A DNA stretch of 64,000 nucleotides, taken from contig JADQBT010000019.1 of NCBI GenBank assembly GCA_016278485.1, positions 1 to 64,000 of the forward strand, read 5' to 3'. Below the pieces are notes generated by a model that worked only from the letters and a program-made list of their open reading frames with translations, did not search any database and had not been told where the DNA came from. Shown here piece by piece: positions 7,352 through 59,572 of the stretch. The stretch is from Halanaerobiales bacterium. Lineage in GTDB: Bacteria > Bacillota > Halanaerobiia > Halanaerobiales > Halanaerobiaceae. The position numbers and the translations under genes were made by a program. Numbering within the stretch: position 1 is the first letter of the stretch; the number at the start of each line of letters is the position of its first letter.

Positions 7352-7384
7352 TAAAACTAAAGTGACTTGAAAAGAGGTGATGTT

Positions 7385-8467
7385 ATGGAAGGACAAGATA
7401 ATCAATTACTTGAAATTTTAAAGATCATTGCACCAGGTACAGATTTTCGAGAAGGTTTAGAGAATATTCTCAGGGCAAAGACTGGCGGATTAGTTGTAGT
7501 TGGAGATAGTGATGAAATTTTGAAGATTGTTAATGATGGCTTTAATATTGATGCAGAACTAACCCCAGCTAGAGTCTATGAACTAGCAAAAATGGATGGA
7601 GCAATTGTTATAGATGGTGATGCTAAAAAAATATTATGTGCTAATGCACAATTAATACCAGACCCCTCAGTCCCATCAACAGAAACCGGTACTAGGCACC
7701 GAACAGCTGAAAGAGTTGCCAAACAGACAGGGGAATTAGTTATTGCAATTTCCCAACGACGGGATATAATTACGATTTATAAAAGTGATTTTAAACATGT
7801 ATTAGAGGATATCAGAGTTGTACTGGCAAAAGCTAATCAGGCTATCCAAACATTAGAAAAATATCGTTCAGTCTTTGATCAAGCTTTAACTAATTTAAGT
7901 GCCTTAGAATTTGAAGATTTGGTCACTATTTCTGATGTAGTTACTGTAATACAAAGAACCGAAATGGTACTTAAAATTCAAAGTGAAATAGAAAAATACA
8001 TAAGTGAACTTGGCTCCGAAGGTAGATTAATAAAAATGCAATTAGAAGAATTAGTGACGAATGTTAAAGATGAAGGTGTATTATTAATAAAAGATTATGT
8101 AAATGTAGAAGAAGATGAAGAAAAGGAAAAAAATCCAGAAAAATTACTACAAGATTTAACTGATTGGTCTTCAGATGAAATTTTAACATTAAATACTATC
8201 AGTAAAGCACTTGGCTATAGTGGAAGTGTAAATACGCTTGAACTATCAATTTCGCCGAGAGGATATCGTATTTTAAGAAAAATTCCCCGTCTTCCGATGC
8301 CAGTTATTGAAAATCTCGTAGATCATTTTGGGGCTCTGCAAGGGATTATTAAAGCATCAACAGATGAGTTAGATGATGTTGATGGTATAGGTGAAGTGAG
8401 GGCTCAAGCGATTAAAGATGGCCTACGTAGATTACGTGATCAGGTATTACTTGACAGACATATATAA
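7385..8467 (+). CDS. disA: DNA integrity scanning diadenylate cyclase DisA
   Basis: DisA condenses two ATP to c-di-AMP and scans DNA for branched structures that shut it off. The 360-aa protein has the DAC domain with the DGA motif (about 69-72, [10 protein letters not shown]) and the RHR motif (about 104-106, TRHRTAER), a central helical spine, and a C-terminal helix-hairpin-helix domain ([18 protein letters not shown]). I chose ATG 7385, which has GAGGTG 5 nt upstream, over the in-frame TTG at 7367. This is one of two diadenylate cyclases in the window. Confidence 0.96.
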
Positions 8468-10361: not shown

Positions 10362-11057
10362 ATGAATTTGGGAGTTGTCATTCCTGCTGCTGGTGAAGGA
10401 AGTAGGATGGGTGAAAATTTAAATAAACAGTATTTAAAAATTGCAGGGAAGCCGGTGCTTTTACACACAGTGCTGGCTTTTAATGCAATAGAAGATATTA
10501 AACAGATGGTAATAGTAGTTAAAGAGGATGAATTAGAGTACTGTCGTAAGGCAGTCTTATCTAAACTAAAGGGGCTAACTTATCCAGTTGAACTTGTTAT
10601 AGGTGGCGCTACAAGGAAAGAGTCCGTCTATTCGGGTCTGTTAAATATGGATGAACAAGTTGAACATGTGATCATTCATGATGGAGCCAGACCACTGGTT
10701 TCCAAGCATTTAATAGAAAGAGTTATAGCGGCTTTAGAAGAGGATGATGCTGTTACCTGTGGAGTTAAAGTTAAAGATACGATTAAATTAGCTAAAGATA
10801 ACTATGTAGAGCAGACCTTGGCACGTGATAGCTTAGTAGCAGTTCAAACACCACAGGCTTTTAAATATGACCTTATTTTAAGGGCCCACCAGGCATATCA
10901 ACAAGAAGGAGCCTTGGATGATGCTTCATTGGTTGAGGAACTTGCAGATCAACCAGTCAGAATAGTGAGAGGAAATTATCATAATCTCAAATTGACGACA
11001 CCAGAAGATTTACCTTTTGCAGAATATATATTAAAGGAGTATGAAAATAATGTTTAG
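10362..11057 (+). CDS. ispD: 2-C-methyl-D-erythritol 4-phosphate cytidylyltransferase IspD
   Basis: Third enzyme of the MEP isoprenoid pathway: MEP + CTP gives CDP-methylerythritol. The 231-aa protein shows the nucleotide-binding N-terminus IPAAGEGSRMG with the downstream Lys in NKQYLKI, the central HDGARPLV motif and the VQTPQAF motif. The start ATG has AAAGGAG upstream. Its 3' end overlaps ispF by 8 bp, so the two pathway enzymes are translationally coupled. It makes the isoprenoid precursors for undecaprenyl carriers and quinones. Confidence 0.96.
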   Translation: MNLGVVIPAAGEGSRMGENLNKQYLKIAGKPVLLHTVLAFNAIEDIKQMVIVVKEDELEYCRKAVLSKLKGLTYPVELVIGGATRKESVYSGLLNMDEQVEHVIIHDGARPLVSKHLIERVIAALEEDDAVTCGVKVKDTIKLAKDNYVEQTLARDSLVAVQTPQAFKYDLILRAHQAYQQEGALDDASLVEELADQPVRIVRGNYHNLKLTTPEDLPFAEYILKEYENNV

Positions 11058-11568
11058 AGTTGGTATTGGCTATGATATTCACCCGTTTACTGAAAGTAAT
11101 GAGCTAATTCTTGGTGGAGTCAAGATAAATTATAAATATGGATTACAAGGTCATTCTGATGCAGATGTATTATTACATGCTTTAATGGATGCAATTTTAG
11201 GAGCTCTGGCCAAAGGTGATATTGGCAGTCATTTTCCTGATGATGATCCGTGCTATAAAAATATAGCAAGTATTTTATTATTAAAAGAAGTAGTAAAGAT
11301 GGTTTCGGCTTCAAATTACTGTATGAATAATGTTGACTTGATAGTGATATGTGAAAAGCCAAAGTTAGCGGTTTACCGGCAAGAAATAGTTAACCGTTTA
11401 TCTGAAATACTTAATCTAGAAAAAACAAAAATAAATTTTAAAGCAACTACACATGAAAAATTAGGAACTTTAGGCCGTGGTGAAGGTATTGCAGCCCAGG
11501 CGGTAGTTAGTTTAATTAATAATAAACTAGTAAATGATAGTATTATAAAGAAGGGAGAAGATAAGTAA
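11050..11568 (+). CDS. ispF: 2-C-methyl-D-erythritol 2,4-cyclodiphosphate synthase IspF
   Basis: Fifth MEP-pathway enzyme, forming the cyclic diphosphate from CDP-ME 2-phosphate. The 172-aa protein begins RVGIGYDIHPF, with the zinc-binding Asp-x-His, and continues with GHSDADVLLHALMDA and GDIGSHFPD, all family signatures; ATTHEKLGTLGRGEGI near the end is also typical. ATG 11050 is preferred to ATG 11041 because the AAAGGAG at 11033-11039 is 10 nt away rather than 1 nt. It overlaps ispD upstream, and its stop shares one base with the next start. Confidence 0.95.
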   Translation: MFRVGIGYDIHPFTESNELILGGVKINYKYGLQGHSDADVLLHALMDAILGALAKGDIGSHFPDDDPCYKNIASILLLKEVVKMVSASNYCMNNVDLIVICEKPKLAVYRQEIVNRLSEILNLEKTKINFKATTHEKLGTLGRGEGIAAQAVVSLINNKLVNDSIIKKGEDK

Positions 11569-12359
11569 TGTTAGTAAGAAAAATTATGACTAAAAAACCA
11601 ATTACAATTAATAAAGAAGCAACGGTTCTTGAAGCTGAAAAAGTCCTTTCGTTAAATAAGATTGGCCGATTAATTGTTGAAGAAGATGGAAAAGTTATAG
11701 GTGTACTCACAGATGGGGATTTAATGGTGGAAAAAGATGTAAATTCACCAATAGAAAAATTTATGTCTAAAAATAATATTATATCTATTAAGGAAACTGC
11801 AACAGTGCAAGAAGCAGCAAAAGTATTATCAGAGCATCAAATTGGAGGGTTACCTGTTTATTCTGATAAAGGCGTTTTAACAGGTATTGTTACCGCGGAA
11901 GATATTGTCTATGGCTATTTAAAAGATGAAGAAGAAGAAATTGCTATGGAGAAAAAGACAATTACTCCAGAAAGTTCTGCTATCTATTTAGCAATGACTC
12001 GGAGTAGGGAATACGAAACATACTGGTTGAGAAAAATAGAAGGTTATGGTTATAAAGGTGCGATTACCCAAACAGGTGCTAGTGCTGAGAAGTTACCAAT
12101 AAAATTAAGAGAGAGCACTACTGTGGCGGCTATTGCAAGAGGTGTAATCTCTGAAAATTCTAGAGAAAAAATGGCTATATCTAATGCAGTAAAAGATGCA
12201 TATAGTCAGTTAGCTCTCATTAATCCAGGTCTTGGTGGAGGTTTTAAGATTGCTGTTGTGCGGGGAGAAGATCATATTTCCGCCGCGATTTTTGGTCGTT
12301 TTGGACATGCGCTTGTAGATGGTCCGGAACAATTGACAGTTGGAACTAGTGTAATATAA
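11568..12359 (+). CDS. Two-CBS-domain protein with a HutP-like C-terminal domain
   Basis: A 263-aa protein in two parts. Residues 1 to about 125 are a CBS pair, each half starting with the typical I/V-M-x-K pattern (VRKIMTKKPITI; IEKFMSKNNIISI) and carrying G-x-L-T/I-V-T-x-D ends (GVLTDGDL, GIVTAEDI); such pairs commonly sense adenine nucleotides. Residues about 135-263 resemble the HutP family: LAMTRSREYE, the AAIARGVI helix and the GGGFKIAVVRGEDHISAAIF strand run align by eye with clostridial HutP-like proteins. Bacillus HutP is a histidine/Mg-dependent RNA antiterminator, but its histidine metal ligands are not evident here. The gene is coupled to ispF (one-base overlap) and precedes gltX. 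An RNA-binding role is inference only. Confidence 0.7.
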   Translation: MLVRKIMTKKPITINKEATVLEAEKVLSLNKIGRLIVEEDGKVIGVLTDGDLMVEKDVNSPIEKFMSKNNIISIKETATVQEAAKVLSEHQIGGLPVYSDKGVLTGIVTAEDIVYGYLKDEEEEIAMEKKTITPESSAIYLAMTRSREYETYWLRKIEGYGYKGAITQTGASAEKLPIKLRESTTVAAIARGVISENSREKMAISNAVKDAYSQLALINPGLGGGFKIAVVRGEDHISAAIFGRFGHALVDGPEQLTVGTSVI

Positions 12360-12399
12360 TAAATTATAATAGATATTGTTTAGAGGAGGAAAATATTTT

Positions 12400-21295: not shown

Positions 21296-21321
21296 AATTG
21301 AGGATAAAATTTAATAGAGAT

Positions 21322-21420
21322 AACCAAAGACAGTAGGAGCTCTTTTAGCTTAAATTTCCTGCCGAGGTGACTTTTTAATAAAAAGCAAACTATACCTCCT
21401 GCCTGTCTACGGGAGGTTTT
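21322..21420 (+). promoter_or_regulatory. L10 leader (ribosomal protein autoregulatory attenuator)
   Basis: The segment CCTGCCGAGGTGA and its surroundings match the known L10-leader RNA in front of rplJ. AGACAGTAGGAG (21328-21339) can pair with 21396-21408 with one bulge. That fold uses up the 5' arm of a downstream intrinsic terminator, ACCTCC (21394-21399) / GGAGGT (21412-21417) followed by T5. The two folds exclude each other, so binding of L10(L12)4 probably decides between read-through and termination. Confidence 0.88.
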
Positions 21421-21422
21421 TC
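21394..21422 (+). terminator. Attenuator terminator of the L10 leader
   Basis: ACCTCC (21394-21399) pairs with GGAGGT (21412-21417), extended by a T-G pair, and runs into TTTTT. It competes with the long-range helix described for the leader. Confidence 0.82.
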
Positions 21423-21466
21423 TATTTTATAAAAAATTAATCGCATCCGTATCAGGGGGTGAAAAG

Positions 21467-59363: not shown

Positions 59364-59385
59364 GGCTAATTAAGAAGAAAATAAA

Positions 59386-59542
59386 GCGCCAGAGCTTGAA
59401 TGGATGCGGATATTAATTCAAGCCGACGAGGAAGAGGGTTATCGAATAATTCGGCGGATGCCCTCAGGTTAACTCAACAAACCTAAAAGCCTATATTAAA
59501 ATCGATAAGTGATTATCGTAATAAAAGTATGGGTAGTTGAGG
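59386..59542 (+). ncRNA. glmS ribozyme
   Basis: Self-cleaving riboswitch activated by GlcN6P. The conserved cleavage motif AGCGCCAGAGC puts cleavage before G59386. Helices that can be checked: GCTTGAAT (59394-59401) / ATTCAAGC (59416-59423), the core GACGAGG, GAGGG (59434-59438) / CCCTC (59461-59465), the AGGTT (59466-59470) / AACCT (59480-59484) pseudoknot, CTCAAC / GTTGAG (59473-59478, 59536-59541), CCTATA / TATGGG, and CGATAA-GTGA-TTATCG (59503-59518). The full P3-P4 domain is present. It lies 31 nt before glmS, so high GlcN6P should trigger mRNA cleavage and turnover. Confidence 0.96.
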
Positions 59543-59572
59543 AAAATAACTTAACTGGAGGAATGAATATAA

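Follow-up and report, generated by a model that had tools for sequence, protein, structure and literature searches.

A conserved protein combining a CBS pair with a HutP-family domain, encoded next to ispF in Halanaerobiales

The window, i.e., the whole 64,000-nucleotide stretch of DNA analyzed here (all coordinates refer to it, and the genome it belongs to is called the window genome), carries on its forward strand an open reading frame for a protein of 263 amino acids composed of two CBS repeats and a HutP domain (11568..12359, +; both Pfam families scoring over cut-off, with orthologues in the same locus). This CBS-HutP gene begins with an ATG, comprises 263 codons and overlaps by one base, within the sequence TAATG, the stop codon of its upstream neighbor ispF (11041..11568, +), which was assigned from its open reading frame and sequence. 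Farther upstream lie ispD (10362..11057, +), recognized from its open reading frame and the conserved locus, and the diadenylate cyclase gene disA (7367..8467, +), for which a survey of DAC domains was used as well. The gene order is the same in all readable loci, namely radA-disA-carD-PIN/TRAM-ispD-ispF-CBS-HutP, followed by gltX and cysS or by other genes. At the 3' end of the CBS-HutP gene we found a perfect sigma-70 consensus, TTGACA-16-TATAAT (12333..12360, +; 12/12 positions matching, 0.03 such sites expected per window). Several relatives have a similar promoter-like site at an identical offset; in some others, a terminator-like hairpin follows the gene. Judging from its sequence, this site probably serves gltX as its own promoter, and the coupling to gltX is thus weak. 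The preliminary description had considered the gene coupled to ispF and upstream of gltX; only the upstream side, with ispD and ispF, proves solid.

The N-terminal half of the protein matches the Pfam CBS family (PF00571, E 1.4e-26) in two stretches. The first repeat covers residues 3-53 (11574..11726, +) and carries the motif G-V-L-T-D-G-D at residues 45-51, the second covers approximately residues 61-115 (11748..11912, +) and carries G-I-V-T-A-E-D at 106-112. Both are instances of the nucleotide motif G-h-h-[S/T]-x-x-D, of which the glycine and the aspartate (G45 and D51, G106 and D112) are invariant in 44/44 sequences, while the serine or threonine is found in 38/44 sequences in repeat 1 and in 44/44 in repeat 2 (position 109). 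Outside this motif the CBS pair drifts, down to 32% identity in distant relatives. Since the motif is conserved in both repeats, an adenosine-type nucleotide is a plausible ligand of the pair, as far as sequence can tell. By sequence and fold matches, the closest CBS-pair sensors are MJ0100, AcuB, the Bateman domain of IMPDH and DarB/CbpB, which share with our protein the CBS pair and the motif in both repeats, but differ from it in the output domain, which is HutP-like here. A helix predicted in the structural model (residues 110-131) connects the second repeat to this domain.

According to a review (PMC7430163), HutP forms a hexamer, and L-histidine and Mg activate it for binding to NAG repeats. 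A resemblance of the C-terminal region to this protein had been noticed by eye in the preliminary description, which proposed a profile search against PF09021, a structural comparison with HutP and a genome survey of the architecture as checks. The profile search returned a highly significant match to PF09021 over residues 137-259 (11976..12344, +; 110.5 bits versus a cut-off of 25, E 8.8e-32). The full-length model (pLDDT 86.5) retrieved CBS-containing structures in all of the 50 fold matches listed, and residues 130-263 were therefore modelled alone (134 residues, pLDDT 90.7, pTM 0.84), from an alignment that included a few stand-alone HutP-like sequences. This domain model superimposes on six HutP entries with Z scores of 15.1-16.9 over 124-129 residues (best with 1vea), versus 7.6 for the best other fold, and its four best Foldseek matches are all HutP (E 7e-8 to 3e-6). 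A profile built from the CBS-HutP subfamily found no HutP among PDB sequences, so that the link to HutP rests on Pfam, on the fold, and on a mixed profile of CBS-HutP and stand-alone HutP-like groups, which reaches the crystallized HutP with E values of 3e-8 to 4e-6. With a Pfam score of 110.5 bits and fold Z scores of 15-17, chance or misalignment can be rejected as the source of the match. On the basis of profile and predicted fold, the C-terminal half is a HutP-family domain with the HutP fold, and the proposed fusion of a CBS pair to a HutP-like domain is thus confirmed.

The domain resembles HutP of Bacillus subtilis and Geobacillus (PDB 1vea, 1wmq, 1wpv, 4ok9) in its Pfam family and over its whole fold, yet it is only 21-26% identical to them, is fused to a CBS pair, shows no linkage to hut genes, and has lost the characteristic binding site. 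When 23 subfamily sequences are aligned to HutP of B. subtilis, the positions of His73, His77 and His138, which we take to be the ligands of Mg and L-histidine, are occupied by I/M/L/S, by N (21/23) and by Q, respectively; none of the 23 sequences retains a histidine at any of the three. The segment with R98 and T99 of HutP aligns to a gap in the subfamily, and T56 aligns to V/A; Thr56 and the Thr99 region are presumably RNA-contact residues of HutP. As the R98/T99 loop is missing, we do not expect the domain to share the RNA specificity of HutP. Moreover, no hutH was found in the window genome, nor in 23/40 relatives searched, and the conserved neighbors are disA, carD, PIN/TRAM, ispD and ispF, with no hut genes among them. 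A genuine histidine- and Mg-dependent HutP antiterminator that merely carries an additional CBS pair, as family membership by itself would suggest, thus seems highly improbable given the absence of the three metal-coordinating histidines, the lack of hutH in the window genome and the nature of the conserved neighbors. We rejected a histidine-responsive HutP for this gene; the domain belongs to the HutP family but does not appear to have kept HutP's response. This agrees with the earlier suggestions that the His-x3-His pattern is not evident and that the protein does not respond to histidine, and extends them to the third ligand, H138.

The genome survey showed that the architecture recurs in dozens of genomes at one and the same locus, and hence is not a product of chance. 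A profile search of whole genomes found the CBS-HutP subfamily in 36/398 sampled genomes of the phylum, where it is sharply bounded: all matches score at least 198 bits, and their open frames are at least 256 aa long, except for one match of 114 aa, probably truncated at the end of its contig. Within the window's order nearly every genome carries it, as do most genomes of the class and scattered Bacillota MAGs; relatives with a name are Halanaerobium, Orenia, Natroniella, Halonatronum and Halanaerobacter. In several distant MAGs it constitutes the only match to the HutP family. Any match to HutP was found in 264/398 of the sampled genomes. Genomes with CBS-HutP often also encode stand-alone HutP-like proteins of two groups, A (∼140 aa) and B (∼160 aa). 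They belong to the same Pfam family, but lack a CBS pair, are 23-29% identical to CBS-HutP, have other gene neighbors and form separate branches. One gene of group A (L044 4974-5402, G000:C37), from Halanaerobiales, immediately precedes an ABC_sub_bind transporter operon, and one of group B (L045 4882-5364, G000:C9) adjoins BtuR/CobO and the cobalamin genes cobS/cobU. In a phylogenetic tree, the HutP groups stand apart on long branches, with group B nearest to the crystallized HutP, and CBS-HutP forms a single, weakly supported group (58/73). These very long branches, together with the failure of the subfamily profile to reach crystallized HutP, suggest that the function may have changed.

The HutP domain is strongly conserved. 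Its identity to the window's protein is 90, 78 and 74% in near, middle and distant relatives, respectively, although the compared loci had been retrieved with two peptide patterns of this very domain, which may bias its identity upward; the whole-genome profile search, independent of these patterns, recovered the same tight family. The corresponding values are 78, 71 and 59% for DisA, 78, 72 and 58% for CarD, 70, 57 and 45% for GltX, and 60, 47 and 32% for the CBS pair, and no neighbor included in the comparison reaches the HutP domain, not even SigH (86% in near relatives). Being more conserved than DisA, CarD and the neighboring tRNA synthetase, the domain seems to do something exacting. Its invariant polar residues are R145, S146, R147, E150, K179, R181, E182, H247, D251 and E254, many of them special to the CBS-HutP subfamily. 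These residues could mark the site of a protein partner or a ligand, in a protein whose HutP-fold domain would have no RNA-binding role and would either act allosterically on a partner under control of the CBS pair, or itself bind a ligand or catalyze a reaction. We regard such a reading, the chief rival of the one we favor, as quite possible, if on the doubtful side. Besides the subfamily-specific residues, it is favored by the loss of the HutP ligand residues and of the R98/T99 loop, by the constant placement next to genes of metabolism and translation, and by the precedent of the CBS protein DarB, which two studies (PMC7900238, PMC8822347) describe as acting on protein partners such as Rel. 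Yet the fold belongs to an RNA-binding family, and the domain model has no match to an enzyme fold above background. IspF or DisA as obligate partners are difficult to reconcile with the loci in which CBS-HutP is kept and one of them is missing, i.e., two loci without ispF (L098, L099) and a MAG clade that lacks disA between radA and carD (L103, L106-L108, L110-L112). A strict dependence on either protein is unsupported.

The reading we favor, to which we would give an even chance, is that of a nucleotide-gated regulator with a HutP fold that acts on RNA in trans. In this scheme, the N-terminal CBS pair would bind an adenosine-type nucleotide, as its conserved motif suggests, and binding would alter the assembly or the surface of the C-terminal domain. 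The latter probably oligomerizes, by analogy to HutP, and would control expression in trans through its action on a nucleic acid, of which RNA is the likeliest. RNA binding, the oligomer, the class of ligand and the direction of regulation are the parts of this proposal that we infer. The adenylate-responsive RNA regulator suggested in the preliminary description is partly supported, with RNA binding, antitermination and an adenylate ligand as its putative elements. A cis-acting RNA target beside the gene was rejected, as the gap between ispF and CBS-HutP in relatives measures only -44 to +75 bases and Rfam has no family match there. A scan of the window for HutP-type repeats (TAG-N4-TAG-N4-TAG), which is no test of binding, gave one match versus 0.71 expected, i.e., chance level. 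Elsewhere in the window, Rfam recognizes a glmS ribozyme and an L10 ribosomal protein leader (59374-59544 and 21306-21431). Against the RNA-regulator reading we count that no RNA target was found and no leader structure flanks the gene, that HutP's R98/T99 loop is missing, that the function may have changed across the long branches of the tree, and that some relatives have the operon intact but no CBS-HutP. The latter are five loci (L121-L125, four of family f10 plus G047) with a complete disA-ispDF-gltX operon; the four f10 genomes are devoid of any HutP match.

Since most genomes have disA a few genes ahead of CBS-HutP, c-di-AMP is among the candidate ligands, beside AMP, ADP and ATP. In a special case of the favored reading, CBS-HutP would be a c-di-AMP receptor that links the output of DisA to control at the RNA level via its HutP domain. 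This version, attractive because of disA but in our view rather unlikely, draws on the presence of disA in the same cluster in most loci, on a diadenylate cyclase in 17/18 CBS-HutP genomes checked, and on DarB and CbpB, established c-di-AMP receptors with CBS pairs (PMC7900238, PMC8549634). However, the radA-disA-ispDF-gltX neighborhood persists without CBS-HutP, which makes proximity a weak argument, and the CBS pairs of solved structure that score best are not known as receptors for c-di-AMP. The clade of MAGs that has lost DisA has kept CBS-HutP, with another DAC protein remaining: 6/7 of its members have one such protein, of ∼302 aa.

To our knowledge, what is known of HutP is essentially limited to one histidine-responsive antiterminator. 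In the open-access literature, we found no paper with both HutP and a CBS domain, and none with phrases such as "HutP family" or "HutP-like"; subscription papers lie mostly outside this search, and public domain databases may list the architecture. The fixed operon and the clean losses provide natural material for a direct test of function. If the favored reading is true, a conserved subfamily that has swapped histidine sensing for a fused nucleotide sensor would extend the HutP fold to another signal. More speculatively, the CBS pair might allow a nucleotide second messenger, c-di-AMP from the neighboring DisA being one possibility, to switch an RNA-binding oligomer of HutP fold and new specificity; in that case, CBS-HutP would be an RNA regulator that is based on a protein, responds to a nucleotide and contains an RNA-binding domain of unusual conservation.
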